Below are positions 30,784-63,388 of a stretch of 64,000 nucleotides of DNA, one piece after another; positions within the stretch are counted from its first letter, which is position 1; every line of letters begins with the position of its first letter. The notes below the pieces were generated by a model. That model saw only the letters and a program-made list of their open reading frames with translations, was not told the origin of the DNA and ran no database searches. The translations under genes and the position numbers were made by a program. This DNA is from Elusimicrobia bacterium RIFOXYA12_FULL_51_18 (GTDB taxonomy: Bacteria; Elusimicrobiota; Elusimicrobia; Elusimicrobiales; UBA9959): contig MGVA01000068.1 of the NCBI GenBank assembly GCA_001800245.1, positions 62,001 to 126,000 on the forward strand, read 5' to 3'.

Positions 30784-30784
30784 A

Positions 30785-31969: not shown

Positions 31970-31970
31970 T

Positions 31971-32600: not shown

Positions 32601-32773
32601 CTGTATTTGTGTTCCATTGGTTTATGTAAATATTTAACGATCTTCACCTGCATCTTCAATTTCACAAATTTGTGCTGATTGCAAATGATTAAATCAGGGC
32701 CTTAAATCAAAGAACTCGCGAATACTGTTTGCTTAATCACACTTGATATGGATTAGTGGTGTCAGGAACTACC

Positions 32774-35786: not shown

Positions 35787-35830
35787 AATATCGCTGATTC
35801 GGCAGGCTTTATTTAGGTTCTTAAGTTAAT

Positions 35831-36778: not shown

Positions 36779-36814
36779 CTCCTGCCCCAATTCGGTAAAT
36801 AGTGGGCCATTCTG

Positions 36815-38047
36815 ATGTCAACAGACAGCAGCGGGCTAGAGAAGTTGAGTTGTTATACAATGAAGCGATTATTAAATAAAGATGTTTTGTGCTTTGCGGG
36901 GGCAGACTGGAACAATCCTCTATGGACAAACAGACAGCATATCATGTCCAGATTGGCTTCCGGTAATAGAATAATCTATGTCGAATCAATTGCTCTTCGC
37001 TCTGCTAATCTTACAAGCGGAGCTGATGTCGGTAGAATTATTCGCAAACTTAAGCAGTTAGTTTCACCATTGCGGAAAGTACAGGACACTTTGTGGGTTT
37101 TAACTCCATTTATTATTCCTTTTAATGCGCGTCTTTTCAGGTTGCTAAACGATTTCCTTTTGTTTTTACAAATATCAGTCGCGATGAAGTATGTCGGCTT
37201 TTCTAAACCAATTTTATGGGCCTACCTACCGCAAGCGCTGGGCCTTATTCGGAGATTTAGCTTTTCAGCCATAATATACCATTGCGTTGATGAGTATTCG
37301 GCAATACCAGGAGTAAGTGGTGATTATTTTAAAAAGATTGAGGATGAATTTATTCGCCAAAGTAATGTGGTCTTCGTGACATCAATGGGCTTGCTTGAAT
37401 CAAAAGGTAAGCAGAAAAAAGAAACATATTATTTGCCGAATGTGGCCGATTATGAATTGTTTTCAAAGGCCAGATCTCCAGAAACTACAATTCCAGCAAT
37501 CTTATCCAACAATAGTAAATCTGTTATCGGTTATATCGGGAATTTGTGCGACCATAAGGTGGATATTGAGTTGCTTATAGCTGTAGCTGATACTTTTCGG
37601 GAATCGAATCTAGTTATTGTGGGTCCCATATGGGGTGGAGATAATAAAACCGACTTGCTGATTAACGACCTGAAATCATACACCAATGTGAGTATGTGCG
37701 GGGCGCAGTCTCGGGAATTACTCCCGGGTTTTCTTAAGTCATTTAGCGTTTGTCTTGTCCCCTATAAATTTAATAACTACACTAAGAACTGTTTCCCTTT
37801 AAAAATTCATGAATATCTGGCTTCCGGCAAACCGGTTGTTGCTAGTGCGCTTTCCGCTATTCGTGATTATAGTGAGGTTATGTATTTTTCCGCTACTAAG
37901 GAAGAATTTCTTGGTAATATTAGGATAGCAATGTTCGAAAATGATAATCCTAAACGAGATAAACGCATACAGCTTGCCTCTCATAATACCTGGGAAAATA
38001 GAATTTTATCAATGGAGAAAATACTTTCCGAATTGAAACTTATATGA
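36815..38047 (+). CDS. GT-B glycosyltransferase (TuaH-like)
   Basis: 410 residues; an in-frame ATG at 36860 is an alternative start and may be the real one. DVLCFAGADWNNPLWTNRQ and HCVDEYSAIPG are blocks of the TuaH-like group, and the donor motif is FPLKIHEYLASGKPVVAS. VIGYIGNLCDHKVDIELL marks the second Rossmann domain. It ends four bases into the next gene (ATGA). Donor and linkage unknown. Confidence 0.82.
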   Translation: MSTDSSGLEKLSCYTMKRLLNKDVLCFAGADWNNPLWTNRQHIMSRLASGNRIIYVESIALRSANLTSGADVGRIIRKLKQLVSPLRKVQDTLWVLTPFIIPFNARLFRLLNDFLLFLQISVAMKYVGFSKPILWAYLPQALGLIRRFSFSAIIYHCVDEYSAIPGVSGDYFKKIEDEFIRQSNVVFVTSMGLLESKGKQKKETYYLPNVADYELFSKARSPETTIPAILSNNSKSVIGYIGNLCDHKVDIELLIAVADTFRESNLVIVGPIWGGDNKTDLLINDLKSYTNVSMCGAQSRELLPGFLKSFSVCLVPYKFNNYTKNCFPLKIHEYLASGKPVVASALSAIRDYSEVMYFSATKEEFLGNIRIAMFENDNPKRDKRIQLASHNTWENRILSMEKILSELKLI

Positions 38048-39183
38048 ATACTCGGAAAACAAGAATTTTACAGGCTAACAAACTTTATTATCCATATATA
38101 GGCGGGATTGAAACCATTGTTCAGCAAATTGCCGAGGGCTTGGCGGGGAAGTTTGCAATGGAGGTCCTGACTTGTAATACAGTATTTTTCAATAGTAAGG
38201 AGGTGATCAATGATGTTGCTGTAACTAGGCTCCGTGCGTTTAATCTGAAATCTTTAACGACTATGCCGATTTCATTGGCCTACCCTTTTGTGTTTAAAGA
38301 AAGATCCTCAAAATATGACGTTTCTCTTATTCATGCTCCTTTTCCACTTGGGGAGATGGGGGCGCTGCTTGCTAATAAAAATACGAAGATAGTCTGCTGG
38401 TGGCACAGTGATATAATAAGGCAAAAAAAATTATTAAAAGTTTATAAGTATATTGTTAATAGATATTTGGAAAGAGTTGATCACATTGTTGTTGCCACAC
38501 CCGGCCATATCACAAGTTCCATTTTTTTAAATAAATTTAAGTATAAATGCTCAGTAATTCCATATGGCGTTGATATCACTAGGTTCACCTTAACCCCAGA
38601 TTTGCAATCTCATATTGCAAACCTTCGAATAAAACATGGCCCCAGAATTATCTTGTTTGTGGGCAGGTTGGTTTATTACAAGGGATGTGAGTACCTTTTG
38701 GAAGCGATGAAGAATGTTGATGCCAAATTGATTGTGATTGGCAGCGGGCCACTGAATGGAATCTTGCAGGATACAATAACCCACGAAGGCTTAAGAGATA
38801 AGGTGGAAACTATTCCCTCAGTTTCTGAAGAGGATTTGCGGGCTTATTATCACGCCTGTGATATATTTGTGCTGCCTTCCGTAGAGAACAGTGAAGGTTT
38901 TGGAATTGTGCAAATTGAAGCCATGGCATGTAAAAAACCGGTTATTAACACTTCTTTACCTACAGGTGTTCCCTGGGTGAGCGTGAACGGACTTACTGGT
39001 TTTACCGTTCCTCCGCGTGATTCTGAATCCCTTGCAAATGCTATAAACAAGTTACTTATGGATAGTGATTTGAGACTGCGGTTTGGAGAGAATGCCCGGA
39101 ATAGAGTCCTGGAGCATTTTACATTGGATAAAATGTTAAGTTCAATAGGGACACTTTTTTCTGCGCTTGGGCATAAAAGATAG
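38044..39183 (+). CDS. GT4-type glycosyltransferase (mannosyltransferase-like)
   Basis: 379 residues. ANKLYYPYIGGIETIVQQIA is a classical GT4 N-terminus; ILFVGRLVYYKGCEYLLEAM and SVENSEGFGIVQIEAMA (donor Glu pair) follow, similar to GDP-mannose-dependent α-mannosyltransferases such as WbdA/PimB-type proteins. With gmd and fcl in the locus a GDP-sugar donor is plausible. Confidence 0.9.
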   Translation: MNTRKTRILQANKLYYPYIGGIETIVQQIAEGLAGKFAMEVLTCNTVFFNSKEVINDVAVTRLRAFNLKSLTTMPISLAYPFVFKERSSKYDVSLIHAPFPLGEMGALLANKNTKIVCWWHSDIIRQKKLLKVYKYIVNRYLERVDHIVVATPGHITSSIFLNKFKYKCSVIPYGVDITRFTLTPDLQSHIANLRIKHGPRIILFVGRLVYYKGCEYLLEAMKNVDAKLIVIGSGPLNGILQDTITHEGLRDKVETIPSVSEEDLRAYYHACDIFVLPSVENSEGFGIVQIEAMACKKPVINTSLPTGVPWVSVNGLTGFTVPPRDSESLANAINKLLMDSDLRLRFGENARNRVLEHFTLDKMLSSIGTLFSALGHKR

Positions 39184-39264
39184 TCGCAAGTAAAGCAAAT
39201 GGCTGTCTGTATACTCAACATAACATAACGGAATATTCCCCATAATTATGAGGCTCAATTTTAC

Positions 39265-40803
39265 ATGCGCATAGTTGTTACCGGTGCTGCCGGATTTATA
39301 GGCTTGCATTTATGCAAGGCGCTCCAAAGTAAGGGATTTGAGGTAATTGCCTGTGTACGGAACACGTGTGGTGCCCTTTCACTGCCTGCCGGGGTGGAGC
39401 CGTTGGTTCTTGGCACCATAGACAACAATACCAATTGGGACAACGTGCTGAAAAAGGGGGATATTGTTGTTCACCTAGCCGGCCGCGCCCATGTTATAAA
39501 AGAAAAATCACTGGATCCATTGGCGGAATTTCGCGCAGTTAATCGGGACGCTACAAAAACCTTAGCTTTGGCATGCGTCCGTAAAGGCGTGAATAGATTA
39601 GTATTCCTAAGTTCTATCGGTGTCAATGGTAATGCAAATACAGGCCAACCTTTTTCTGAGGCTGATTCTCCGGCCCCGATGGACCATTATGCCGTGTCTA
39701 AATTGGAGGCGGAACAAGAGCTTTCAGTTATAAGTCGTGAAAAAGGCTTACTTTTTACTGTTATCCGCCCTCCGCTTGTATACGGCCCGGGAAATCCTGG
39801 TAATTTCCTCCGTTTGCTTCGGTTGGCAGCTTCCGGCCTGCCGCTACCATTTGCCGCCTTCGAAAATAAGCGCAGTATGGTTTTTGTGGGTAACCTGGCT
39901 GACGCCATTATTGTGTGCATGATAGCACCGGCGGCTATCGGTAAAACGTATATTGTCTCTAATGGGCGGGATGTTTCACCCGCTGAATTGGTTGCTTTTA
40001 TAAGGGAGAAATTAGGGTTGCCGTTGCGGCTTTATTATTTTTCACCGATTCTTATTCGCGCGGCTGCTAACCTGGCGGGTTTTGGCGTAGCATTTGAAAA
40101 GCTTACTGCTTCGCTTCTTGTGGACTCCTCAAGGATAAATTATGAACTTGACTGGAAGCCACCTTTTTCCTTAGCAAGCGGATTAGCTGAAACTGTTGAA
40201 TGGTATGAAAACATTGTCTCCGCCCGGGAGGTTAAGTACAGTGTGAAACGCGTTTTTGATGTTATCTCGGCCCTGTTCGCCCTTACTATTTTTGGCTTTC
40301 CTATGCTTTTATTGTCACTACTGGTAAAATTAACTTCGCAAGGCCCGGCGTTATACTGGTCTGACCGGATTGGCCGAGGGAATAAAATTTTCAAAATGCC
40401 AAAATTCCGCACCATGCGCGTTGATACTCCACCTATGGCTACCCACCTTATGACCGAGCCGGAGAGGTACTTGACGCCGATTGGTAGCTTTCTGCGCAGA
40501 ACCAGTCTGGATGAGCTTCCTCAACTGTTAAGCATACTGTATGGGGATATGAGTTTTGTGGGCCCCCGGCCTGCACTTTTTAACCAGGCTGACCTTATAG
40601 CCTTTCGCACAACCAAAAGCATACACTGCATTACTCCGGGGCTTACCGGTTGGGCGCAGGTTAATGGCCGGGATGATCTGGCTATTTCGGTTAAGGTTGA
40701 ATATGATGAGTTTTATTTAAAGAATTGGTCTTTTGCTTTTGACCTTAAGATTCTGGTGATGACGGTTATTCAGGCGGTGATGGGGAAAGGGGTTAGCCAC
40801 TAG
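39265..40803 (+). CDS. Fusion of WbpV-like SDR and initiating sugar transferase (WbaP/PglC type)
   Basis: 512 residues. Residues 1-315 are an extended SDR close to WbpV/4-reductases and UDP-HexNAc epimerases: VTGAAGFIGLHL, VVHLAGRAHVIKE, VFLSSIGVNG, MDHYAVSKLEAEQEL (YxxxK) and IRPPLVYGPG. Residues about 325-512 are a monotopic phosphoglycosyltransferase: KRVFDVISALFAL re-entrant helix, FRTMRVDT, the catalytic Asp-Glu in SLDELPQL, VGPRPALFNQ and PGLTGWAQVNGRD. The fusion would make and load the first sugar-phosphate onto undecaprenyl phosphate in one polypeptide. It is GC-richer than the genes before it. Confidence 0.9.
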   Translation: MRIVVTGAAGFIGLHLCKALQSKGFEVIACVRNTCGALSLPAGVEPLVLGTIDNNTNWDNVLKKGDIVVHLAGRAHVIKEKSLDPLAEFRAVNRDATKTLALACVRKGVNRLVFLSSIGVNGNANTGQPFSEADSPAPMDHYAVSKLEAEQELSVISREKGLLFTVIRPPLVYGPGNPGNFLRLLRLAASGLPLPFAAFENKRSMVFVGNLADAIIVCMIAPAAIGKTYIVSNGRDVSPAELVAFIREKLGLPLRLYYFSPILIRAAANLAGFGVAFEKLTASLLVDSSRINYELDWKPPFSLASGLAETVEWYENIVSAREVKYSVKRVFDVISALFALTIFGFPMLLLSLLVKLTSQGPALYWSDRIGRGNKIFKMPKFRTMRVDTPPMATHLMTEPERYLTPIGSFLRRTSLDELPQLLSILYGDMSFVGPRPALFNQADLIAFRTTKSIHCITPGLTGWAQVNGRDDLAISVKVEYDEFYLKNWSFAFDLKILVMTVIQAVMGKGVSH

Positions 40804-50362: not shown

Positions 50363-51277
50363 ATGACCAGAAACAATTTGGTTTTGACCAGGATCTTTTT
50401 AACCTTGTTATTTCCGTTTTTCTGCGGTCTCCGGCCTGTTCAGGCCAACGATAATGTTTACAAGAAAATGGCGGCGGACATCGCCAAGTACTCCAGTATA
50501 AATAAAGTGAAGAGTATCGCCGTTCTGGCCTTTTCCCGCAAGGCCAGGACGTCCCGCGAGGAGAGCGAGTACGTCTCGGAGCGGCTGCTGACCTGCCTGG
50601 CGGAATCGGGAAAAGTGAAATTGCTGGAAAGAAGCCAGCTTGACCAAGTGCTTCAGGAACAGAAGCTTGGGCTGGCCGGCCTGACCGAAGGGGTGGAGGA
50701 TAAAAAAGAGGGCGCTCTCTCCTCCGCGGACGTGATCATAATAGGCGTGGTTTTCGGCACCGCCGACCACCTGAAGATAATAGCCAAAATGATAGACCCC
50801 GGGACAGGCGCGGTGCTGCATGTAATTGAGGCCCAGACTGAAAGGCAGTGGGACATGGTCATGGAAAGGCCGGGATTTGAGTTCGATGTGCTGGATATGA
50901 CGGTGCTGGTGGGTATGTTCGCGGACGAGGCGAAGCTCCCGGCGCTTAACGATTTCAGGGACGCCCCCAGGAACGTCGAAACCGGCGACTGTAGCGCCAG
51001 GCGGACCAGGCTTATAAAGCATCAAGCCTCGGCGATGGAGGCTAAGGCTAAGTATTGGGCGCTTAAGATGCGGGACCCGGATTTTTCCAGCGAGATCCTC
51101 ACCAGGAACCCGGGCGGGGAAATAGCCGATCCCCAGATGAAGAAAATATTTTACCGGCTGCTGGATGAAATGTACAAATCTGACGACGCTCCGCGTTTAT
51201 CTTTTTCCGAGGAAGAAGAAGTGAGAAAAATTATGGAGGAAGAGAAGAGATTGTCGGATGACTGCGGGCTGCATTAA
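50363..51277 (+). CDS. Exported CsgG/TolB-N-like protein
   Basis: 304 residues with a signal peptide (LTLLFPFFCGLRPVQA). The central part has the CsgG/FlgO-type fold: KSIAVLAFSRKA, YVSERLLTCLAESGKVKLLERSQLDQVLQEQKLG, then ADVIIIGVVFGTADHLKIIAKMIDPGTGAVL. These proteins bind or form complexes at the outer membrane. The C-terminal 100 residues are charged and helical. GCGGGAGGA precedes the start. Its end overlaps the convergent response regulator gene by four bases. Confidence 0.78.
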   Translation: MTRNNLVLTRIFLTLLFPFFCGLRPVQANDNVYKKMAADIAKYSSINKVKSIAVLAFSRKARTSREESEYVSERLLTCLAESGKVKLLERSQLDQVLQEQKLGLAGLTEGVEDKKEGALSSADVIIIGVVFGTADHLKIIAKMIDPGTGAVLHVIEAQTERQWDMVMERPGFEFDVLDMTVLVGMFADEAKLPALNDFRDAPRNVETGDCSARRTRLIKHQASAMEAKAKYWALKMRDPDFSSEILTRNPGGEIADPQMKKIFYRLLDEMYKSDDAPRLSFSEEEEVRKIMEEEKRLSDDCGLH

Positions 51278-51630
51278 ATAACTTTTTCCAGCATCTCCCT
51301 CAGTTCGCCTATGCCGAAAGGCTTTATGAGAAACCCCTCAACTTCCACGCCCGTGGCGATGGGGTTTGCAATATTGGAAACCGAGCCTGTAATGACTATG
51401 ATCTTTGCGGCGGGGCGCAGGACTTTAAGTTTCTTTATTACTTCTTCTCCCCGCAGGTCCGGCATTTTTAGGTCGCATATCACCGCGTCAAATTCTTCTT
51501 TCTCCGCGGCTGTTATCGCGGAGGCTCCGTTGACGGCCTCTGCTATTTCATAACCGCGGCTTGCCAAAGCCCGTTTGACATAGTTCCGGACTATTTCTTC
51601 ATCATCCACCACCAGAATTTTTTTAGGCAT
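51274..51630 (-). CDS. Single-domain response regulator
   Basis: 118 residues, receiver domain only: ILVVDDEEIV, phosphoacceptor Asp53 in VICDLKMPDLRG, Thr/Ser in VITGSV, Lys in LIKPFG. With the hybrid kinase gene 2 bases upstream on the same strand it probably forms a cytoplasmic relay with no DNA-binding output of its own. Confidence 0.92.
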   Translation of the reverse strand: MPKKILVVDDEEIVRNYVKRALASRGYEIAEAVNGASAITAAEKEEFDAVICDLKMPDLRGEEVIKKLKVLRPAAKIIVITGSVSNIANPIATGVEVEGFLIKPFGIGELREMLEKVI

Positions 51631-51632
51631 GG

Positions 51633-53189
51633 TTACACCGGCAGGCGCAGGGTAAAAACGGACCCTTTGCCGGCTTCGCTCTCCGCGGAGATCGTTCCGT
51701 TATGTCTGTTCAATATGCCGAGGCAGACCGATAAGCCAAGGCCGGTTCCTTTCCCGGCGGGTTTGGTCGTAAAGAAGGGGTCGAAGACCCTGTCCAGTAT
51801 CTCCCTCGGGATCCCGGCCCCGGTATCCGCGAACGAGACGGTTATCATCCGCCTTCCATCCGGGTCCGGGGATGGCGGAAGCGTACTTATTGTGATCGTT
51901 CCTCCGTCCGGCATGGCGTCCTTTGCGTTGGTAAGCAGATTCAGGAATACCTGCATTAATTGCTGGAAATCGGCGTTTACCAGCGGAAGGCTCTCGCCGA
52001 ACCGCTTGACGATCTTTATATGTTTCAATTCCATCTGCCGGGCGCAGAGGACCAGGGTTTCCTCTATCGTTTCGCTGATGTTGACCGGTTCCATCTGGGT
52101 TTTTTCTTGCCGGGCGAATGATAACAGCGATGTGATGATCTTTTTGCAGCGGAAGACCGCCTTTTCTATGTCCGTGAGGTCCTGATGGGTCTGTGTGCCC
52201 GGCGGAGTTGTTTCCAGTACCAGCTGGGTCAGGCCGAGAATCCCGGAGAGCGGGTTGTTTATTTCATGCGCCAGCCCCCCGGCCAGCTGGCCGAGCGCCG
52301 ACATCTTTTCCGCCTGGATCAGCTGGGATTGTGTTTCCTGAAGCTGCTTGTATAAATTAGCGTTCTTTAACGCCAGGTTCACCAGCGAACCGAAGATCTT
52401 GGCCTTCTGTAGGTCATTTTCGCTGAAATATTCTTCCGGCTGGCTGCGGTTGATGTTTATGAGCCCTATCAGCCCGCCGGTTTCCATCAGGGGCAGCATC
52501 ATGGCGAATTGGACGTCGCTAAGATGTTTTATGTCCGCGAATCTTTTATCTCCGGAGGGGTCCTCTATCAGCACTACCGGCTCGAACCCGTCGGCCGCCA
52601 GCCGTTTCAGCACGCGTCCGCAGACCTCAAGCCTGGAACTTTTACGCTGATCGTCTTCCAGCCCGTCGGAGATGGCGATATAAGGCCGTTCCGCCTTATC
52701 CAGCAGCACAAGCAGGGATTCGTCGGCTTTTAACACCCCGGTTACGGAATCTATCACTATCCTCAGCAATTCCTCCGATTTGATGGTAGAGAAAATAGCT
52801 TTTGTTATATCGTTGAACTTGCGCTTTGCCAGAGCTTTTTCGACGACAGTGAAAAGTTCGGTTATCTCGAAAGGTTTGTGTATGTAATCGAACGCGCCTT
52901 TCCTCATGCTCTGGACGGCGGTGCCCATGGTCCCATGCCCTGTGGCGATTATAACTTCTATGGCGGGATCAATTTTCTTTATTTCACCCATGGCCGTTAT
53001 GCCGTCCATTACCGGCATCTGGATATCCATGACCACAAGATCGAACTTTTCCGCGCTTACTTTCGCGACCGCCTGTTTCCCGTCGAACGCGTCGGAGATC
53101 TCGTAGCCTTTGCTCATAAGAGCCTCAGAGATCATTTCCGATATTTGCGCGTCGTCGTCCACGATCAGTATTTTAGCTTTGTGGTTCAT
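51633..53189 (-). CDS. Soluble sensor kinase: REC-GAF-HisKA-HATPase
   Basis: 518 residues without membrane helices. An N-terminal receiver (Asp55 in LVVMDIQMPVMDG), then a GAF domain (about 150-285), then HisKA with the phosphorylated His near 307 in GGLAHEINNPLSG, and an HATPase domain with NLLTNAKDAMPDGG and GKGTGLGLSVCLGIL. The N-terminal receiver makes it a responder-kinase in a multi-step relay. The adjacent single receiver at 51274 is the likely phosphate acceptor. Confidence 0.93.
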   Translation of the reverse strand: MNHKAKILIVDDDAQISEMISEALMSKGYEISDAFDGKQAVAKVSAEKFDLVVMDIQMPVMDGITAMGEIKKIDPAIEVIIATGHGTMGTAVQSMRKGAFDYIHKPFEITELFTVVEKALAKRKFNDITKAIFSTIKSEELLRIVIDSVTGVLKADESLLVLLDKAERPYIAISDGLEDDQRKSSRLEVCGRVLKRLAADGFEPVVLIEDPSGDKRFADIKHLSDVQFAMMLPLMETGGLIGLININRSQPEEYFSENDLQKAKIFGSLVNLALKNANLYKQLQETQSQLIQAEKMSALGQLAGGLAHEINNPLSGILGLTQLVLETTPPGTQTHQDLTDIEKAVFRCKKIITSLLSFARQEKTQMEPVNISETIEETLVLCARQMELKHIKIVKRFGESLPLVNADFQQLMQVFLNLLTNAKDAMPDGGTITISTLPPSPDPDGRRMITVSFADTGAGIPREILDRVFDPFFTTKPAGKGTGLGLSVCLGILNRHNGTISAESEAGKGSVFTLRLPV

Positions 53190-54058: not shown

Positions 54059-54706
54059 ATGAAAAAGTTAATGATGGCGATAGCGGTAATAGTTAATGCG
54101 GCCTCTGGAGTCAGGGCGGAAGAGTTGAAGATGGATTTCGACAAAGGCTCTTACAGTTCCCAGAAGTTTATGGAGGCGGTCAAGGCGCAGGAGCCCAGTG
54201 TGAGTGGCATCTCTTGGAAGGCCTTCTCGGTGGAGTCCGGAAATGCGGGTGATCCCTCGGACGATTCCGCAATACTGGCGACCATTAACCGTTGCGAAAA
54301 CAAGAAGGTGGACGAAACACTGCGGGATGACTTAAAGAAATTGCTCGTATATGGCACGGCAGAAGAGAAAGCACAGTTCAACACTCCGGAGAAATATGTT
54401 TTTCCGAAAAGGCTGAATACTTTTGTGTCCTTCAGGAGTTTTGATCAACTCTCAGCAAAAGACAAGTCTCTTGGAAATTGTGTAAAATGGGCTTCAAAGG
54501 ACGTTTGTCGTGATAAGGAAATCTGGCAGACTGCCTGTCTAGCCGGGACTGTTTGGTGCTTTACGGCTGCCGGCGGAAGTTGTGGCCCTGCCGGGGCTGT
54601 TTGCACCCTTGTTAACAAAATTGTTTCGGAATGCGTACCTGTGCCGTACTGCGTTGAGTGGGATAGCGAGGCTATTCCCGGCTTCGGAAATCCAGGGGTA
54701 GTCTAG
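54059..54706 (+). CDS. Secreted Cys-rich protein of unknown function
   Basis: 215 residues with a signal peptide (MMAIAVIVNAASGVRA). The first 130 mature residues are polar. The C-terminal 80 hold nine of ten cysteines in WASKDVCRDKE, TACLAGTVWC, GGSCGPAGAVC and SECVPVPYCVEWD, around a Gly/Ala-rich hydrophobic centre. This could be a disulfide-bonded module that meets a membrane. No family is recognised. ACGGAGAAAAAAG precedes the ATG. The shared σ54-type promoter suggests it belongs to the same regulon as the peptide genes at 61.8 kb. Confidence 0.65.
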   Translation: MKKLMMAIAVIVNAASGVRAEELKMDFDKGSYSSQKFMEAVKAQEPSVSGISWKAFSVESGNAGDPSDDSAILATINRCENKKVDETLRDDLKKLLVYGTAEEKAQFNTPEKYVFPKRLNTFVSFRSFDQLSAKDKSLGNCVKWASKDVCRDKEIWQTACLAGTVWCFTAAGGSCGPAGAVCTLVNKIVSECVPVPYCVEWDSEAIPGFGNPGVV

Positions 54707-55141: not shown

Positions 55142-55159
55142 TCGGCAAACTGTATTGTA
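55142..55159 (+). promoter_or_regulatory. Weak σ54-like site P2
   Basis: TCGGCAAACTGTATTGTA has GGCA and ATTG like P1 and P3 but the spacing is one base longer, and GCGCCCCCTATTTTT lies upstream as at P1. It is 48 bases before the peptide gene at 55207. The spacing defect makes function doubtful. Confidence 0.3.
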
Positions 55160-55206
55160 ATGAGATCTCGAAACTGGTAGAATAAAAACATTGCAGGGGA
55201 GATATA

Positions 55207-55380
55207 ATGAACAAAATTAAACAAATCGCTCTTATATTCGTATACGCTATTGTCGGGCTGGTTTCCGCGTCGAATGCCACAGTATTCGATAAAGCGGGCG
55301 TGGTCACCGCCAAGAGCGCGGTGAGGGATAGTAATGATCCAAATCGCGATGGCCCGCCGCCAATGAAAATTCATAAATAA
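55207..55380 (+). CDS. Small Sec-exported peptide (57 residues)
   Basis: Starts MNKIKQIALIFVYAIVGLVS with cleavage near SASNA, leaving about 33 residues: a polar segment and a Pro-rich end (DGPPPMKIHK). AGGGGAGA precedes the ATG by 6 bases. No cysteines. Position just before the YcaO-like, peptide-binding and sensor-kinase genes suggests a secreted signal or a substrate for processing, comparable in layout to exported pro-pheromones; this is inference. No family is recognised. Confidence 0.55.
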   Translation: MNKIKQIALIFVYAIVGLVSASNATVFDKAGVVTAKSAVRDSNDPNRDGPPPMKIHK

Positions 55381-55392
55381 CCTGCGGACTTT

Positions 55393-55438
55393 TAGGATAA
55401 AGTTACGTCTAAGGGTATATCCTAATGGGTATACCCTT
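55393..55438 (+). promoter_or_regulatory. Overlapping inverted repeats before the YcaO-like gene
   Basis: TAGGATA (55393-55399) can pair with TATCCTA (55418-55424), while AAGGGTATA (55411-55419) can pair with TATACCCTT (55430-55438). The two pairings share bases 55418-55419 and interlock. The second is followed by TTACTTTT. Could be a terminator for the peptide gene, an attenuator or an operator. Confidence 0.4.
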
Positions 55439-55451
55439 TTACTTTTAAATT

Positions 55452-56387
55452 GTGATAACTACGGCTAAAACTCTTCTTAGGTTCATAGATCCGGAAACCG
55501 GGCCTATAACAAGAATCACATCGGCTCCTTATCCCAGCTTGTTCAAAAGGAGTTGGTGGCATTCTTCCGCGTTTCTACATAAAAATATCACCGGTGTAAC
55601 TGGGGAGTTTAAGATTTTTAACCAAGGTAGTGGCGGTGCTTGGAGTCCAGATAAAGAGGAAAGCCAGGTAAAAGCCGTTGTGGAGGCTATAGAGAGATGG
55701 TCTTTTTTTTATTACTCTTCCGGACAAAGCGCCGGATTAGATATTGATTCAACCACAAATGGTTTTGCGGCGTTGCCTGATAGTTTCGGAAGCGGGCCTG
55801 TGAAAGCGAACGCTTATTGTGAAGCGTTGGAAAGATGGCTGCTGGACAGAATATGGTACAACGGTGATGTCCTCCTTGTAAATTTCCCCTGGGAGCGCAC
55901 CAAGGCCCCCGCGCTATTCGGCGGGTACGCAGAACGCTTGCGCGTCTATATCACAGAAATGGCGGATATAGAGTTCCCCGATCTTTCCGATAAAAAAGTG
56001 TTTTTTTGTCTTGCCTTGTTGGAAACAGAATGTGGCGGAGTGCTGCCTGGGTCTGCGTGCGGGATGGATGTGAATACTGTGGCGGAACATGCCATTATAG
56101 AACTTTACAACCACTATCTAGTCTTTGGGAAGATAAAGAAACTTAACCCCGCGCGGCTTGACAGCCTCATTGAGGCGCGCCTTTATTATTTTGCTAGTTC
56201 AAAGTCTGCGGGAGAAATGGTTAAAACCAAAATCCAGATTGGAAAAAATTCTGTCCCGAAGATCCCCAAGTTGGCCTTTTCCGCCGCGATAATAGGGCCT
56301 TGGAACCCCGAAGTCAATGTCTACCGCGTCCTTTTGGACGGCACGGTTCCTTTCATGACGGATGGGGTCGAGCGATTTCTGGTTTAA
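55452..56387 (+). CDS. YcaO-like protein
   Basis: 311 residues from a GTG start. The YcaO ATP-binding pattern is visible: GSGGAWSPDKEESQVKAVVE followed by AIERW (Glu78, Glu81, Arg82), then TNGFAALP and KANAYCEALERWLLDRIW (the SNGxAAG and E-L-x-E-R blocks). YcaO enzymes phosphorylate peptide backbone amides to form azolines, amidines or thioamides. This one is short and lacks a C-terminal Pro-rich motif. No separate E1-like partner is present, so its role is uncertain. The next gene begins right after its stop. Confidence 0.78.
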   Translation: MITTAKTLLRFIDPETGPITRITSAPYPSLFKRSWWHSSAFLHKNITGVTGEFKIFNQGSGGAWSPDKEESQVKAVVEAIERWSFFYYSSGQSAGLDIDSTTNGFAALPDSFGSGPVKANAYCEALERWLLDRIWYNGDVLLVNFPWERTKAPALFGGYAERLRVYITEMADIEFPDLSDKKVFFCLALLETECGGVLPGSACGMDVNTVAEHAIIELYNHYLVFGKIKKLNPARLDSLIEARLYYFASSKSAGEMVKTKIQIGKNSVPKIPKLAFSAAIIGPWNPEVNVYRVLLDGTVPFMTDGVERFLV

Positions 56388-57950
56388 ATGTATTACATTG
56401 CCCGCTTTATCTGTTTTCTGTTTATTTGCCCGCTATCATTGTCAGCAGGAGATAACGCTATGAATTCGACCCCGTTCAGGTTCCTATACTGGTATCTTCC
56501 CTCGACCTTCGACACATATAAATCGGACCGCATTGATGTTTTGCCGGTGATCCGGAATATTTATGCTCCGCTGATTACTAGTTTTATGAACAGCAGGACG
56601 GAGGGAATGATCGCGGAATCGTGGAAGGTGGATCCGACAGGGAAAACATGGAGATTTAAAATACGGAAAGGACTAACTTTTGACGATGGGACGCCGATAA
56701 CTGCGGATATCGTGCTAAAGAATTTCAGAAGGATCTTGTGGCTTACACGTAAAGATGCTCTCCCCTTAAACTCGCTTATGCCGGAGGTGCGTGACTGGAA
56801 CAACTATGCTGCGCCACTTAAAAGCATCTACGCGACCGGCGATACGCTTATCTTCAAACTGAATAAACGGGCGGCAGACTTGTGCGAGATATTGGACCAG
56901 GCGATATATAGTATTGCAGATCCAAAATGTTTTGACAAAAACGCCCAATGGAAAGACGATTTCTGTTATTCGGCGTCCGGCGCATATAGGGTAAAAAGTA
57001 TTTCCAAAGAAAAAGTGGTGCTGGAATCGAGGCACGTCTTTCATTCAGTTGAGTACGCCCCTGGGGTGGTGGAAATATATGGCTCACCCGCCAATCGGGA
57101 TTTTATCGGGGCGATAACCGGAAATAGCTGTGACATGACCGTACAAATGAGCAGCAGCCTGGGGAAGGATAAGCTAAAGACGCTTACGTCCGCCGGAGTC
57201 GCCGTCACCGAAGGAATAGCGACTGATATGTATTTCATGGAACTGAATCACAAACACCCTCCATTCAGCGATCCGGCTCTTCGCCGGTCGGTCCGTGACG
57301 TATTCTTTTATATCCTACAAAACGGTTCACAACTGTCGTCGCAGGTGTCGATTGACCATTCGTTTATCCCAAAAGGGGGAATGGGATATGTGAAATTCCA
57401 CGCACCGCGCAGCGTCCGGCCGGTAAAGGGAGCCAAGGGAAAAGTCGTTATTATTTCAACTCCACTACCCGAGAAGATAACAAGCAAAGACCAGGATATC
57501 AAGATACTAGTAGAGGAGGCCCTTACCGAGTCTTTGCGGTTGCATGGCATGACTTCACACATTATCCGATTGTCCGGAAAAGAATGGTATAACCGGAAGG
57601 CAAAAGGAGCCTACGACATTATATATCGTGCGTCAGGCATATCTATTTCAGACCCATTCGTTTCCCTGCGTATGATGTTTATGAGTAAAATCGGCGCGTG
57701 TATTCCTGACCCCTCAGGCAAGATCCCTGAAATCATAAAAGAGGCCGAGGGCACGCGCGGGCCCTCAGACAGGAGGCTTTTGGCGGAAAAAATAAACAAA
57801 ACAATATTTGATGACGCGGCAGTACTGACTTTTATGCATTCAGGGCCAGTCTACCTTCATAATCAAGGCGTGGACCTGTCGCATTTCAATTCGGCCTCCG
57901 ATGTTGTAGAGTTCCGTGCTATTAGCTGGCGGCCGGAAATGGTGAAATAA
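56388..57950 (+). CDS. Oligopeptide-binding protein (SBP family 5) without a permease
   Basis: 520 residues with a signal peptide (FICFLFICPLSLSAG). The SBP_bac_5 fold is visible in GMIAESWKVDPTGKTWRFKI, RKGLTFDDGTPITADIVLKNFRRIL, SASGAYRVKSISKEKVVL and ALRRSVRDVFFYIL. These proteins normally deliver peptides to an ABC importer. None is present; instead the sensor-kinase gene follows 2 bases later. It probably senses a peptide in the periplasm on behalf of that kinase. Confidence 0.88.
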   Translation: MYYIARFICFLFICPLSLSAGDNAMNSTPFRFLYWYLPSTFDTYKSDRIDVLPVIRNIYAPLITSFMNSRTEGMIAESWKVDPTGKTWRFKIRKGLTFDDGTPITADIVLKNFRRILWLTRKDALPLNSLMPEVRDWNNYAAPLKSIYATGDTLIFKLNKRAADLCEILDQAIYSIADPKCFDKNAQWKDDFCYSASGAYRVKSISKEKVVLESRHVFHSVEYAPGVVEIYGSPANRDFIGAITGNSCDMTVQMSSSLGKDKLKTLTSAGVAVTEGIATDMYFMELNHKHPPFSDPALRRSVRDVFFYILQNGSQLSSQVSIDHSFIPKGGMGYVKFHAPRSVRPVKGAKGKVVIISTPLPEKITSKDQDIKILVEEALTESLRLHGMTSHIIRLSGKEWYNRKAKGAYDIIYRASGISISDPFVSLRMMFMSKIGACIPDPSGKIPEIIKEAEGTRGPSDRRLLAEKINKTIFDDAAVLTFMHSGPVYLHNQGVDLSHFNSASDVVEFRAISWRPEMVK

Positions 57951-57952
57951 CA

Positions 57953-60001
57953 ATGCTCTCAAAATGGCGGCTGCTTCAGATATGGTTCCTGGCTGGCGCC
58001 GTTCTGGCCATTATCTTTTCAGCGGCTTTTTTCTGGCTGTGGTCCGCCGCAAAAGAATACGGGGTCTCTTCTCTTGAAAAACAGATTACCACAACTCTTT
58101 CAAATGAACTGGCCGAAGGGAATATATTAAAGCTTGAGGCCGCGTTAGGCAAAAGTCAAAAAGAAGGAATTCTTCAGTTTGCCGAGATCCGGCAGTTTGT
58201 TCGACCGGATTCCTGGGAGACCATTTATAAGACACAGTTTCTCGGTTCGCCGGCCGTAGATCCTTTTACGGGGTTTACCTGCTCGTCCGGCCGGCTTGTA
58301 AAACCACATTTTTGGAGGGGCGTAGGCCTGCTTGTGGTGTTGCCGGGGAACATTTCAGGCGCAGATTGTCTTGCTTTATATATAGATTCAGATCTTCCGC
58401 ATGGCCTTAAAATCTTGCGTAACAGGTTGATATTGTTCGCAATATTCAGCGCCGCTGCACTTGTAGGCTTGTTTTTTATATACATGACCTCCTGGCATAA
58501 AAAGATTGTTCTTCTTGAAACAGAAAATCTGAAAGCTCATATCGACAAGCAAGCGTCCTTGACTGCCTTGGCCGCGCAGGTGGCGCATGACATACGGTCA
58601 CCCTTGTTTGCGCTGGACGCGGCGCTTAAAGATACGGCGGAACTTCCTGAAAAGAAACGTATTATAGTGCGGCATGCGGTTAATCGCATACGCGATGTGG
58701 CGAATGATCTTCTTGAAAAGAACCGGCAACAGACAAAAACCGTACCAGCCGCTGATTCTGCCGGAGAAAAATCCGAAGCGGGTGTGATATTGCAAACCTA
58801 TCTGATCTCAAGCATTGTTGATCCTATTATCACGGAAAAGCGACTGCAATTTGAGTCAAAACCAGGGATCAATATTGATTTTGAATTAACGAGGGAATCT
58901 TACGGCCTGTTCGCTAAAATCCAGCCTGTTGAGTTCCGGCGCATGATTTCTAATCTGGTCAATAACGCCGTTGAGGCTTTGGGCGATAAAGGTGCGGTAA
59001 TTATAAGTTTAGGTCATGAAAACGAAAGCATCATTTTGACAGTATCCGATAATGGCAAAGGCATACTACCCGAAATACTGGCGCGTCTTGGTCAAAAAGG
59101 CGAAACTCACGGTAAAGCCGGAGGATCGGGTCTTGGGTTGTTCCATGCCAGAACTACGGCGGAAAGTTGGGGTGGCAGTCTGACAATTACTTCGGAGCCG
59201 GGCAAGGGCAGCAAAGTCACAATAAAACTACCTAAAGCCGAAGCTCCTGATGAATTTGTGCCGGAATTGATACTTTATCCTGGCAGGCCGGTTGTTGTTC
59301 TGGACGATGACCCGAGTGTCCATCAGATATGGCAGGGCCGGTTTGAGTCCGTCCGTGTTAAAGAACATGATATTGAAGTACTCCATTTCAGTGAGCCGGA
59401 TAAATTGCGGACTTGGGTGAAAGCCAATCAGATAAAAGTCGAAAATGCCGTCTGCCTTTTTGATTATGAACTTTCAGGGTATAAAGAAACCGGATTAAGC
59501 CTGTCCGAAGAGCTTGGGCTCTGCGGTCAAACGATATTGGTCACAAGCCGCTGCGAAGAGGATCGGATAATTGCAGAATGCAGGCGTCTTAAGATACGAA
59601 TGATCCCAAAAGGATTATCCGGTTTTGTGCCTATGACGATAGGTGATAGTAAATCTCTTATTAATCCGCCTGTTTCTGCTTCGTCTTCTAAATGCGTTGT
59701 TCTGGTGGACGATGACGCGCTTACGCATATGACCTGGGAAATGGCCGCACAGGAGCACGGCATTAAATTGCAGGCATATACCGACCCGGCTGAGTTCCTC
59801 TCGCAACTGGGGGATTTTCCCAAAGACACGCCGATATACATAGATTCCGACCTTGGTGAAAATATAAAAGGCGAGGATATTGCCGCAGACCTAAGAAAAA
59901 AAGGTTTCACGAATCTTTGCCTTGCGACCGGACATCCTCCGGAGAAATTCTCCCATTTGCCCTGGCTGAAAGTGATCAGCAAAGAACCGCCGTGGGGCTG
60001 A
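57953..60001 (+). CDS. Hybrid sensor kinase with two C-terminal receiver domains
   Basis: 682 residues. Membrane helices at about 12-33 and 158-178 enclose a 125-residue periplasmic sensor. HisKA has the phosphoacceptor His212 in AAQVAHDIRSPLFAL, then an HATPase with LVNNAVEALGDKG and GGSGLGLFHART. Two receiver-like domains follow: VVVLDDDPSVHQIW with LFDYELSG, and CVVLVDDDALTHMTW with YIDSDLG. Phosphate could pass through these to a separate Hpt/DHp protein and on to the σ54 activator. The adjacent peptide-binding gene supplies the likely input. Confidence 0.9.
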   Translation: MLSKWRLLQIWFLAGAVLAIIFSAAFFWLWSAAKEYGVSSLEKQITTTLSNELAEGNILKLEAALGKSQKEGILQFAEIRQFVRPDSWETIYKTQFLGSPAVDPFTGFTCSSGRLVKPHFWRGVGLLVVLPGNISGADCLALYIDSDLPHGLKILRNRLILFAIFSAAALVGLFFIYMTSWHKKIVLLETENLKAHIDKQASLTALAAQVAHDIRSPLFALDAALKDTAELPEKKRIIVRHAVNRIRDVANDLLEKNRQQTKTVPAADSAGEKSEAGVILQTYLISSIVDPIITEKRLQFESKPGINIDFELTRESYGLFAKIQPVEFRRMISNLVNNAVEALGDKGAVIISLGHENESIILTVSDNGKGILPEILARLGQKGETHGKAGGSGLGLFHARTTAESWGGSLTITSEPGKGSKVTIKLPKAEAPDEFVPELILYPGRPVVVLDDDPSVHQIWQGRFESVRVKEHDIEVLHFSEPDKLRTWVKANQIKVENAVCLFDYELSGYKETGLSLSEELGLCGQTILVTSRCEEDRIIAECRRLKIRMIPKGLSGFVPMTIGDSKSLINPPVSASSSKCVVLVDDDALTHMTWEMAAQEHGIKLQAYTDPAEFLSQLGDFPKDTPIYIDSDLGENIKGEDIAADLRKKGFTNLCLATGHPPEKFSHLPWLKVISKEPPWG

Positions 60002-60184
60002 TTATGATTTCGGTTTTGCTTCCAACTCCGTCAGAAGCATAATAATATCCTGCGCCGCTTCGCGCATAAGCCTGATCACTTTATCCTTTTTTTCCGGAGG
60101 GCATTTTTCCAGGAGTTCCACCGCGCTTTTAAGGCCTATGGTTTTTGATTTAAGGTTGTGATATATTTTTTCATTATCGGCCAT
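60002..60184 (-). CDS. 60-residue stand-alone DHp-like protein
   Basis: Starts at the ATG at 60184, two bases after the stop of the σ54 activator gene whose last codons carry its GGAGAGG site. IYHNLKSKTIGLKSAVELLE matches the H-box helix of a HisKA/DHp domain (His8), and KKDKVIRLMREAAQDIIMLL the second helix, together one DHp hairpin with no ATPase domain. A dimer could form a four-helix bundle that passes phosphate from the receiver-bearing kinase to the activator's receiver. This function is inferred. Confidence 0.72.
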   Translation of the reverse strand: MADNEKIYHNLKSKTIGLKSAVELLEKCPPEKKDKVIRLMREAAQDIIMLLTELEAKPKS

Positions 60185-60186
60185 GA

Positions 60187-61533
60187 TTATTTCCTCTCCG
60201 TTGTTTTCAACTTCGCCAGCACGGAATACAGAAGACATTTAGAGATCTTAAGCTGGGTAAGCGTGGCGGCTTTTTTGCCGTGGTTCTCGCTTAGATTGCG
60301 GTTAATGATCCCCGCGGTAAAACGGTCCGCGGCGGCGGCAAGGCCGTGTTTAACCGCATAATCGTACTGCTCCTGTGTAACAGCCGCTGCGCCTGTCTGC
60401 TCCGGCGCGACGCATGGCGTAATGTGCCGTTGCACAGTGTCCAGCGTCACCGATCCCTGTGTGCCGGCCGCTATTAATTCCACAAAGCGCTTTAGTTCAC
60501 GGGTGTTGCCGGGCCAGTTGTGCGCCAGCAGATGTTCCCTTGCCTCCGGCTCGAACGCAAGCCGCTTCTTTCCCTTTGTAAAAGCCTGCATTAGTGGGAA
60601 GATATCGCATTTCCTCTGTGCCAGGGGTTTTAGTGCTATCGTCATGCCGTGCACGCGCTGGAAGAAATCAAAGCGCAACTTTCCCTCGGCCAGCAGTTTC
60701 TGCACGTCCTCAAGAGTGGCGCTTATTACGCGGAAGTCGGAATACTCCGGCTTGTCCGCCCCAAGTGGGTAGAACGCCTTTTCCTCAATGGCCTTAAGCA
60801 GCTTCACCTGCATATTCTGGCTCATGGCACCTATTTCATCGAGGAACAGCGTGCCCTTGTCCGCCTGCGCCAGTTTGCCTTTGCGGTTTTCATGCGCGCC
60901 GGTGAATGACCCTCTTTTATATCCAAACAACTCTGATTCCAAAAGGTCCTCAGTATAAGCCGCACAATTTATCGACACAAAGTCGCCGTCCCGGCCGGAA
61001 TGCCCGTGCAATAGCTGCGCGAGGGTGGTCTTGCCGGTGCCGGAAGGGCCAAGGAGCATCAGCGGCAGCTCCATAGCCGCGTATTTAAGAGCCTCGGACA
61101 CCAACGAGCGGGTTTCGGGGTCGTTGGTTATAAAAACTTCGGAGAAAACTTCTTGCGCTTCTTTGCCGCCGTCGCCGCGCAGATACCGGGCTATGATGGC
61201 CGCTATGTTATGGTCCTCGTTGCCCTTCACATAAAACTCTTTACAGCCAAGCGCGTAAGCCCGGCCAATGGTTTCTTCCGTATCACAACTAGACATTACC
61301 ACGGAGTAAATATTCCTTGAAACCGCCAAAGGGATAAGCTTCAGCCCGGAATAATCGTCATTCTCACCGAGCAGCAGGTCCATAAAGCAGATATCATAAT
61401 GCCCGGCCTTAAGTTTGCGTTCGGCCGTAGCTTTATCCCCGGCAAACTCCACCGCATGGCCCGCCAGGTTTTCCGACATAACCTCGCGTGCCAGCGCGTC
61501 GTCTTCAACCACAAGAATATTTAGTTTACCCAT
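60187..61533 (-). CDS. σ54-dependent response regulator (NtrC family)
   Basis: 448 residues from the ATG at 61533; the longer frame to 61728 adds non-homologous residues. Receiver with VVEDDALAREVM and phosphoacceptor Asp52. AAA+ domain: Walker A LGPSGTGKTT (161-170), GSFTGA (208-213, Ser in place of the first Ala of GAFTGA), Walker B LFLDEIGAM. The end has a Fis-like helix-turn-helix (NHGKKAATLTQLKISKCLLY). It is divergent from the precursor-peptide promoter P3 and is the obvious activator of it. The DHp-like gene follows in the same operon. Confidence 0.93.
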   Translation of the reverse strand: MGKLNILVVEDDALAREVMSENLAGHAVEFAGDKATAERKLKAGHYDICFMDLLLGENDDYSGLKLIPLAVSRNIYSVVMSSCDTEETIGRAYALGCKEFYVKGNEDHNIAAIIARYLRGDGGKEAQEVFSEVFITNDPETRSLVSEALKYAAMELPLMLLGPSGTGKTTLAQLLHGHSGRDGDFVSINCAAYTEDLLESELFGYKRGSFTGAHENRKGKLAQADKGTLFLDEIGAMSQNMQVKLLKAIEEKAFYPLGADKPEYSDFRVISATLEDVQKLLAEGKLRFDFFQRVHGMTIALKPLAQRKCDIFPLMQAFTKGKKRLAFEPEAREHLLAHNWPGNTRELKRFVELIAAGTQGSVTLDTVQRHITPCVAPEQTGAAAVTQEQYDYAVKHGLAAAADRFTAGIINRNLSENHGKKAATLTQLKISKCLLYSVLAKLKTTERK

Positions 61534-61738
61534 TAAAGCCCCCAACTTGCCGCCGTCTGATATCCAATATTGTAGCAAACCCAGGCCATATCGTCTTATA
61601 AAAGTACCATAGGGATCTAAAATAGTACGCATTACGAGTCTTTTACAAGATAAAACAAGCCGCGCTAATTCCAGGCTAAAGAGTATTCTCCGACGATAAA
61701 ACAAGGAATATGCGCCCATTTCGGCCATTTTCCGGATT

Positions 61739-61756
61739 TCGGCATAATAATTGCTC
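61739..61756 (+). promoter_or_regulatory. σ54-type promoter P3 of the peptide operon
   Basis: TCGGCATAATAATTGCTC: GG at 61741-61742 and GC at 61753-61754, exact GG-N10-GC spacing. It lies 41 bases before the first precursor ATG and 200 bases from the divergent σ54 activator gene. Upstream repeats of CCCATTT/CCATTTT/GGATTT may bind the activator. Confidence 0.75.
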
Positions 61757-61794
61757 TATACAAGAGTGTAGACTAAAAACGGATAGGAGGAAAA

Positions 61795-61899
61795 ATGGAA
61801 TTGTTTAAAATCGAAGTCGAGAAAGTTGAAGCACAAACGCGCGGCTGCGGCTGTGTATGCGTGCCTGGAGTTGGTGGTGGCGCCGGGGAAAATAAATAA
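61795..61899 (+). CDS. Precursor peptide 1 (34 residues)
   Basis: Starts MELFKIEVEKVEAQ and continues TRGCGCVCVPGVGGGAGENK. A leader of about 15 residues is followed by a core with CxCxC and a GGGAG stretch. TAGGAGG lies 5 bases before the ATG. It has a paralogue immediately downstream and a radical SAM maturase after that, so it is very probably a ribosomally made, modified peptide. Below the size limit of most gene finders. Confidence 0.85.
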   Translation: MELFKIEVEKVEAQTRGCGCVCVPGVGGGAGENK

Positions 61900-61916: not shown

Positions 61917-62024
61917 ATGAGGGAACTGTTTAAAATAGAAGTTGAAGTTCTTAACGAAACCACAACGCGTGCATGTCAATGCCTCTGCTCTGGTTTGGGT
62001 GGTGGAGCCGGCGGGGAAAAATAA
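61917..62024 (+). CDS. Precursor peptide 2 (35 residues)
   Basis: Starts MRELFKIEVEVLNETT and continues TRACQCLCSGLGGGAGGEK. It shares ELFKIEVE, TR, CxCxC and GGGAG with peptide 1, while the residues between cysteines differ (GCV against QCL). AAGGAGA precedes the start. The conserved leader and variable core positions are typical of a RiPP precursor family. Confidence 0.85.
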   Translation: MRELFKIEVEVLNETTTRACQCLCSGLGGGAGGEK

Positions 62025-62086: not shown

Positions 62087-63388
62087 ATGAAATTGTTTTT
62101 TGATAAAAATATTATAACCCTTAAAGAGCCCGATAATAATTTTATAATCTATAGCCCACTGATACACAAAAGGGTTAGGATAAGTAAAGCTGTTTTTATA
62201 ATAATAAATGATGTCCTTAACAATGACGGCGATGTCAATTTAAGCAAGATAAAAGAAACTATCTCAAAAGAGTTTAAAACAGCGGCTTCGGACGAGGATA
62301 TCCTATCGCAGATAAGGTATTTGGAAAAATTAAAGTTTCTGTTTAAGAAGGATACGGATAAAAACGAACTCAGCGGAACGGTTAACGACAAGATAGTAGA
62401 GGATATACAGCTGGCGGATCTGTCGACCGCCTATATGCATTTAACGATGAGGTGTAATTTTAATTGCTCGTATTGTTATAACAGGGATTGGCATAAAAAC
62501 TTCAGAGATGAACTAAAAACGGATGATTGGGCAAAAGTCGCGGACAAATTAAGCAAAACCACTATCAAACACATCAATGTCACGGGAGGGGAAGCGCTGG
62601 TCAGGAAAGATGCGGGAGTAATAATAAAAAAGTTGGCGGAATTAAAATTCAGGGTCTCGCTGCTTACGAATGGGAGTCTGTTGGGGGAAAGATATAAGGA
62701 AGTCCTCCCCTATGTGAACTCCATCGTTTTAAGCCTGGACAGTGAAAATGAGCATAGCAATGAATTAAATCGAAGCGCCATCGGATTTCAAAACATACTT
62801 CAGGTCATCAGAAAGATCACGAAAGAATTCCCCGATAAACTGGTGGTAAGAAGCGTTATCACCGCTAGCAATATAGATGAAGTTAAGGAGTTCCATGATA
62901 AATTGAAAAATGAGTATGGCGTGAAAAACACGATAAAAACCATGCTTATCCCCAATCGGATAGAGGACATTGCACAAGTTCCCGAGTTGGAAAAGATAAA
63001 GACCCTCAACGATACCGAGATCGGCGAAAGCAATGTGTATTATCGTTGTTCTGCGGGAAAGAAGATCATTGCGTTAAGCCCGTCGGGGGACATTTTTCCG
63101 TGTCAAAGCCTGATGCATGAAGAGTTTAAAATGGCGAACATCTTTGACGGAGACTGGCAGGAAAAAGTAAAAAGAAGTTCGACCGCGCTTATGCCTAAGC
63201 TTTTGGCTGAAAAGAAGGGATGCACGGATTGCCAATATAAGCATTTTTGCGGAGGCGGCTGTCCTGCAATAGGCTATAGGCTGCACGGGAATTTTGATCA
63301 TCAGCCGGATTTCCTTTGCCCTCATTTAAAAGAGCAGGCCAAGTGCAGATTGGAGAATGTGCAATCCACATGGGAGACCATCAACTGA
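62087..63388 (+). CDS. Radical SAM/SPASM peptide maturase with RRE-like N-terminus
   Basis: 433 residues from the ATG at 62087 (AGGAG upstream); a longer frame from 61973 overlaps precursor 2. Residues about 1-90 resemble a PqqD-type precursor-binding domain. The radical SAM cluster is CNFNCSYC (Cys123, 127, 130), with VTGGEALVRKD following. The SPASM region has YRCSAGKK, FPCQSL, CTDCQYKHFCGGGCPA and DFLCPHL, giving ligands for auxiliary clusters. Homologues make sactipeptide, ranthipeptide or similar crosslinks. The two upstream peptides are its likely substrates. The bond type is not predictable here. Confidence 0.92.
   Translation: MKLFFDKNIITLKEPDNNFIIYSPLIHKRVRISKAVFIIINDVLNNDGDVNLSKIKETISKEFKTAASDEDILSQIRYLEKLKFLFKKDTDKNELSGTVNDKIVEDIQLADLSTAYMHLTMRCNFNCSYCYNRDWHKNFRDELKTDDWAKVADKLSKTTIKHINVTGGEALVRKDAGVIIKKLAELKFRVSLLTNGSLLGERYKEVLPYVNSIVLSLDSENEHSNELNRSAIGFQNILQVIRKITKEFPDKLVVRSVITASNIDEVKEFHDKLKNEYGVKNTIKTMLIPNRIEDIAQVPELEKIKTLNDTEIGESNVYYRCSAGKKIIALSPSGDIFPCQSLMHEEFKMANIFDGDWQEKVKRSSTALMPKLLAEKKGCTDCQYKHFCGGGCPAIGYRLHGNFDHQPDFLCPHLKEQAKCRLENVQSTWETIN

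Follow-up and report, generated by a model that had tools for sequence, protein, structure and literature searches.

We analysed a 64,000-nucleotide window (the whole stretch shown above) of Elusimicrobia bacterium RIFOXYA12_FULL_51_18, whose draft genome (2.75 Mb) comprises 69 contigs. The subject here is a gene block at positions 55207–61757 of this window. Its plus strand encodes a small exported peptide, a YcaO-fold enzyme, a periplasmic substrate-binding protein (SBP) and a histidine kinase. Its minus strand encodes a small protein resembling the dimerisation and histidine-phosphotransfer (DHp) helices of kinases and a σ54 activator, and these two genes converge on the kinase gene. On the 3' side of the block, a σ54 promoter leads into two Cys-rich precursors of a ribosomally synthesised and post-translationally modified peptide (RiPP), a radical SAM enzyme and an ABC transporter (Table 1). 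A sequence-only reading had listed these parts, and each was located at its place in the DNA through open reading frames (ORFs), Pfam matches, motifs and predicted folds. We propose that the block is a swappable peptide-signal cassette feeding one phosphorelay, in which the signal is probably an autoinducing, YcaO-modified pheromone.

Table 1. Features of the peptide-signal cassette, its relay and the facing operon (window coordinates; aa, amino acids; TM, transmembrane segment)
Feature	Position	Strand	Basis
σ70-like promoter before the peptide gene (TTGTAA, 17 nt, TAGAAT, extended -10)	55155..55183	+	consensus scan only
Exported peptide precursor, 57 aa, presumed signal; hydrophobic N-terminus, TVFDKAG, variable tail DSNDPNRDGPPPMKIHK	55207..55380	+	
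Terminator-like hairpin between peptide and YcaO genes; 12 bp stem, T-rich tail	55411..55438	+	
YcaO-fold enzyme, type 1, 311 aa	55452..56387	+	PF02624 and predicted fold
SBP_bac_5 periplasmic binding protein with signal sequence	56388..57950	+	PF00496, E 3e-27
Histidine kinase: TM, periplasmic sensor, TM, DHp (HDIRSP), HATPase, two receivers	57953..60001	+	
Putative DHp-like phosphotransfer protein, 60 aa, HNLKSK	60002..60184	-	
Receiver (REC) and AAA σ54 activator, GSFTGA motif	60187..61533	-	PF00072 36.2 bits; PF00158 184 bits
σ54 promoter TCGGCATAATAATTGCTCT facing the RiPP operon	61739..61757	+	family pattern
RiPP precursor 1, 34 aa, ...RGCGCVCVPGVGGGAGENK	61795..61899	+	
RiPP precursor 2, 35 aa, ...RACQCLCSGLGGGAGGEK	61917..62024	+	
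Radical SAM peptide maturase, 433 aa; SPASM-like C-terminus below cut-off	62087..63388	+	
ABC transporter, runs past the window end; 568 aa in L002	63453..64000	+	

There is good support for the path from the SBP to the promoter being one functional unit, and we hold this part of the proposal with high confidence. The σ54 site (GGCATAATAATTGCTCT, 61741–61757) has no mismatch to the family pattern, for which only 0.27 chance matches are expected in the window even when two mismatches are allowed. The genome of the window holds nine matches to the pattern and none to a reversed control; downstream of the nine are an rpoN-like gene, genes for exported proteins, and precursor-like ORFs accompanied by radical SAM genes. 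A predicted promoter of the form YTGGCATAAAAATTGCTCT is found divergent to 27 of the 42 activator genes examined, with both position and consensus conserved.

The arrangement of the block is found again in further genera and families of the Elusimicrobiota phylum and is therefore not due to chance. In eight further loci (G014:C19, G001:C83, G005:C118, G007:C70, G031:C1, G034:C73, G139:C10 and G026:C70; G-numbers denote genomes, C contigs and L-numbers the loci compared), activators 57–86% identical to that of the window occur with a DHp gene and converge on kinases with the same core. The convergent kinases are about 60–73% identical from residue ~190 onwards, and their sensor halves differ. 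The sequence-only reading had drawn a chain from SBP through kinase, receiver, DHp and activator to promoter and had pointed to gene order in relatives as a check; conserved order in several genera, with kinase, DHp protein and activator converging in at least nine loci, and the recurring promoter now lend that chain support.

The SBP gene adjoins a kinase with a periplasmic sensor, as is characteristic of SBP-activated histidine kinases, and no dedicated permease was found for it between 54 and 64 kb of the window. Of the kinase domains, HATPase scores above the Pfam cut-off and HisKA and the C-terminal receiver below it; the HDIRSP motif and the D, T/S and K positions of both receivers were read straight from the sequence. 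The kinase homologues of G033 and G014:C15 retain the second receiver only. The 60-aa DHp-like protein has no match in Pfam, and its AlphaFold2 (AF2) model is a helical hairpin with a mean confidence (pLDDT) of 89.7. Its histidine is kept in 48 of 49 matches, the exception being an overlapping frame. Aligned with a profile of kinase DHp domains, it places histidine on histidine in the H-box, with an E value of 1.7e-4 but a match probability of 49.5%; the fold search is not diagnostic, as generic hairpins match and kinases appear at ranks 6 and 10 with E values of about 1. The activator matches Sigma54_activat with an E value of 2e-54, and its GSFTGA motif was read from the sequence. Its start most likely lies at 61533 (MGKLN, which fits the homologues), the 513-aa ORF from 61728 probably beginning too early; the likely start of the DHp-like protein is 60184.

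As candidate activator-binding motif of the window-type activators, the only clear shared element was rejected, as it reads as the activator's own promoter -10 box (TACAAT). Those sister activators that lie close to rpoN-like genes have TTTTCAAATGAAAA in common, and several carry this palindrome upstream; it is possibly an activator site. A second activator–DHp pair is widespread in the family (L075, L067:7566, L106, L109, L110, L114 and L138). In L110 and L138 it adjoins a short rpoN-like gene (Sigma54_DBD, 341–355 aa), and genes of the same size occupy the rpoN-like position in other loci of this second pair.

Upstream of the kinase lies the variable part of the system, which consists either of a type-1 YcaO enzyme with a type-1 SBP or of a type-2 YcaO enzyme with a type-2 SBP. 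Other sets comprise an SBP beside a radical SAM gene (G031), an SBP with a methyltransferase (G005) and an SBP alone (G026:C83, where it groups with type 2). SBPs of different cassette types share 11–22% identity, against 60–71% for the kinase cores. From their position, the radical SAM enzyme and the methyltransferase may be signal-maturation enzymes. In sequence comparisons, the peptide varies as a unit with the putative maturation enzyme, the SBP and the sensor domain of the kinase, and the kinase core is kept. The finding is thus larger than that first made for this DNA, and the unit in the window is one of several swappable cassettes. The sequence-only reading had offered a quorum-type circuit or one sensing prey or neighbours. 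The co-variation of peptide, enzyme, SBP and sensor favours the self-made signal, and prey or neighbour sensing was dropped because the candidate signal is encoded within the cassette, beside its presumed receptor. Transposase-like fragments, read by eye, lie just upstream of two cassettes (L006:1-950, L069:8373-8909), hinting at horizontal movement.

The peptides themselves form families tied to the cassettes. The type-1 family has seven members (window, G139, two copies in G033, two loci in G192, and G023) that share a hydrophobic N-terminus, the motif T-x-F-D-x-x-G and a variable tail. Across the 340 genomes of the phylum searched for the peptide families, strong matches to it occur at seven places, every one beside a cassette. 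The type-2 family has eight members beside type-2 cassettes, its strong matches are likewise confined to cassettes, and peptide and type-2 YcaO coincide at 8/8 loci. A candidate peptide is present in 17 of the 21 SBP–kinase cassettes seen in the phylum, and none was seen in those of G014:C15, G005 and G026:C70 or in the second G031 cassette. In a blind scan, a secreted 40–80-aa ORF with a ribosome-binding site preceded 7 of about 22 cassettes versus 3 of 626 other genes (0.5%) from the same loci. A dedicated exported precursor with a conserved leader and a variable tail that adjoins receptor genes is the arrangement of peptide quorum sensing.

A parallel was found on two Opitutales contigs, where a distant relative of the type-1 YcaO enzyme (25% identity) is preceded by an exported peptide. 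This precursor contains three tandem repeats of a Cys-containing core, GCAQLPCYHRDFN (L099:7390-7700, L100:7392-7706). Divergent to the YcaO gene in L100 is a 1361-aa Reg_prop hybrid kinase with REC and Hpt domains, and the other contig holds a 1362-aa ORF in the matching place. Core repeats are a typical trait of secreted precursors of signals, for instance that of the yeast mating factor.

The YcaO enzyme was assigned by sequence match and predicted fold. PF02624 narrowly passes its cut-off of 25.7 bits in the window (30.3 bits); two type-2 enzymes reach 28.5 and 30.3 bits, and a third, at 17.8 bits, falls below. In a fold search with the AF2 model (pLDDT 71), the first 14 PDB matches are all YcaO enzymes (Z 9.9–16.5), among them McbD, LynD and those of M. 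kandleri, M. jannaschii and E. coli, and the next, unrelated match has a Z of 6.8. A sequence search of the PDB with the YcaO profile found no relative, so that fold comparison was needed, and no NCBIfam equivalog exceeds its cut-off. The YcaO query recovers relatives in the named Elusimicrobia genomes GWB2_63_16, HGW-Elusimicrobia-3 and GWA2_66_18.

We consider it probable that the neighbouring peptide is the ligand of the SBP and is modified by the YcaO enzyme. After synthesis in the cytoplasm and probable modification by the YcaO enzyme, the 57-aa precursor would be exported, and its variable C-terminal part would become the signal. As there is no permease, the SBP is proposed to capture the signal in the periplasm and present it to the periplasmic domain of the kinase, which would phosphorylate its own receiver or receivers. 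From the kinase receiver, phosphate could then reach the DHp-like protein at its conserved histidine and finally the receiver domain of the σ54 activator, whose gene lies beside that of the DHp-like protein. This regulator would in turn open the divergent promoter at 61741 and switch on the radical-SAM RiPP operon. Peptide modification, peptide binding and the order of phosphotransfer are all inferred here, and the behaviour of such a circuit would be density-dependent. The σ70-like promoter and the hairpin behind the peptide gene would fit a steadily made signal that exceeds its receptor, and the hairpin may hold the peptide transcript above the level of the receptor genes. The count of σ70-like promoters in the region is near chance level, and that of terminator-like hairpins is near that of shuffled sequences. 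No σ54 site was seen before the peptide gene.

Several observations weigh against a YcaO-modified pheromone. Since the peptides were first found near cassettes, their association with them is partly due to ascertainment, and the type-1 peptide locus of G023 shows no YcaO gene before the contig ends. The ExxER and ExxERW motifs of the YcaO ATP site are conserved and the third ATP motif lacks its usual Gln, so that catalysis is likely but not certain. In addition, the signal-peptidase site of the peptide is not clearly conserved, and the peptide might consequently remain membrane-anchored. This would suit an alternative in which the relay is real but its SBP senses an oligopeptide or other nutrient from outside, with the small peptide serving the kinase or SBP as an accessory membrane protein and not as the signal. 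Known kinases that an adjacent SBP activates do include small-molecule sensors, for example those studied with AgtS and AruS (PMC11113362). An accessory protein should, however, be conserved throughout, whereas the tails are the variable part, and the putative maturation enzyme belongs to the cassette. Moreover, L101 and L102, from two genera, have nearly identical type-2 peptide tails, ending KTPPAKSALG, together with SBPs that are 75% identical, and the Opitutales precursor repeats one core three times. We regard the accessory-protein explanation as unlikely.

Other adverse points concern the link between cassette and relay. DHp and activator genes lie within ~10 kb in ten cassettes (window, L067, L138, L060, L064, L105, L066, L111, L063 and L072), but six cassettes with complete flanks have neither gene adjacent (L006, L068, L069, L007, L073 and L065; by genome G033, G192 (two), G014:C15, G026:C20 and G026:C83). 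The remaining cassettes are on cut contigs. The sequence-only reading had counted an SBP and kinase with unrelated targets in relatives as evidence against it, and this was found in part: three type-1 cassettes (G033 and twice G192) have no adjacent activator or RiPP genes, and the sister activators of L066 and L072 face exported proteins that are not RiPPs. G033, G014 and G192 hold DHp/activator pairs elsewhere in their genomes, which makes signalling in trans possible. The cassettes without an adjacent activator could also mean that the window merely juxtaposes an unrelated peptide–YcaO–SBP–kinase operon and an unrelated activator–RiPP pair. The repeated convergence of kinase, DHp protein and activator, a kinase core kept under new sensors and the shared σ54 promoter make such a chance neighbourhood highly improbable.

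Some activators, finally, face genes other than RiPP genes (L066, L072 and L064). The activator's promoter faces RiPP precursors and a radical SAM gene in three cases, namely the window, G014:C19 and G139 (the latter two being L060 and L067), and in G014:C15 (L007) the kinase gene is directly followed by this promoter and RiPP genes. In other loci the gene that it faces encodes an exported protein (G031, G026:C70) or a receiver protein (G034), and RiPP control is accordingly one predicted output of the regulon and not the sole one. In the window, short Cys-rich precursors, a radical SAM enzyme and a transporter stand together, as in radical-SAM RiPP clusters; no NCBIfam equivalog for the radical SAM enzyme exceeds its cut-off.

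This output also bears on a further alternative, in which peptide and YcaO enzyme make an independent RiPP, for example a bacteriocin, with SBP and kinase responding to this product for self-protection or detection. The usual products of YcaO enzymes are bioactive RiPPs, and antibiotic-sensing kinases with binding proteins exist. Against this, the cassette contains no transporter or immunity gene, the peptide has its own N-terminal export signal, and the predicted output is a separate RiPP operon unrelated to the peptide; we judge a bacteriocin improbable.

Further genes under σ54 promoters were observed. A Cys-rich exported protein of 215 aa (54059–54706) lies under a near-copy of the promoter, GGCATAAAAATTGACCT, at 53971, in which the -12 GC is changed to GA. 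Proteins with a similar start, VDFD(G/K), lie under the σ54 promoter at other sites of the genome, and also divergent to the activators of L066 and L072. RiPP precursors at L060:11787, L067:15861-16342 and L007:6642-6149 share the leader SLNMT-GE-LTLEKAADRMEFEALPL and have Cys/Asn-rich cores; a radical SAM enzyme and a membrane protein with HELGH, a possible protease, accompany this family. Outside the block, a separate receiver and receiver-kinase pair, distant kin of the cassette kinase, lies on the minus strand at 51274–53189. The region 22000–40000, with a G+C content of 38–42% versus 50–55% on both flanks and a long run of plus-strand ORFs, is possibly an acquired cluster.

Little is known about peptide signalling in Gram-negative-type bacteria. 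More broadly, the cassettes may represent a new class of modified-peptide pheromone systems of two-membrane bacteria, in which a precursor, a YcaO or other RiPP enzyme, an oligopeptide SBP and a kinase form swappable cassettes that act through one DHp–σ54 relay on exported proteins and further RiPPs, and Opitutales hold a parallel arrangement; we see this proposition as evenly poised. If true, a small exported ORF, a RiPP enzyme, a permease-less SBP and a kinase would be a gene signature for modified-peptide pheromones, each paired with its likely receptor. The natural swaps of signal, enzyme, SBP and sensor on one kinase core would therefore make specificity directly testable. The system also offers a candidate for a minimal 60-aa phosphotransferase and a possible trigger for silent RiPP clusters of an almost uncultured phylum.

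The separate elements have counterparts in known systems. Spo0B and ChpT are DHp-type phosphotransferases of phosphorelays, and the DHp-like protein is likewise a putative histidine phosphotransferase resembling the DHp helices of kinases. Unlike them, it is a bare 60-aa hairpin with no ATPase-like domain and is co-encoded with a σ54 activator. LuxP/LuxQ is an SBP-activated sensor kinase system. In P. aeruginosa, AgtS and AruS are sensor kinases with nearby SBPs, and they resemble the cassette in that the gene of a periplasmic SBP, thought to signal through the kinase, adjoins that of a membrane histidine kinase (PMC11113362). In contrast to AgtS/AruS and LuxP/LuxQ, the cassette includes a dedicated peptide gene and a putative maturation enzyme, its binding protein belongs to the oligopeptide type, and a single kinase core has received different sensors by swapping.

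Among modified peptide pheromones of quorum sensing are ComX and the autoinducing peptide AIP. The cassette shares with them a small precursor with a variable signal part, a maturation enzyme and a histidine kinase receptor, all adjacent. It differs in that a YcaO enzyme (possibly a radical SAM enzyme or methyltransferase) replaces ComQ or AgrB and in having an intervening binding protein, two membranes and a σ54 output. To our knowledge, the roles described for YcaO enzymes lie in antibiotics and protein modification and do not include signals. Streptococci import their pheromone to a cytoplasmic regulator without YcaO modification, whereas an extracytoplasmic SBP–kinase phosphorelay is proposed here. 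The proposed likeness to streptococcal Rgg/SHP lies in the control of a radical-SAM RiPP operon by a small secreted peptide (PMC8092268). Bacteroidales have RiPP clusters, one of them with histidine kinase and response regulator genes, and the passages available from that study contain no such cassette (PMC10352776). Since searches of the open-access full-text literature found no paper on a signalling system that unites a YcaO enzyme with a binding protein and a kinase, we regard the cassette as a novel combination. SBP-activated kinases, modified peptide pheromones, DHp phosphotransferases and quorum-controlled radical-SAM RiPPs are each known; what appears to be new is their combination, and there is a fair chance that this cassette type deserves a class of its own.

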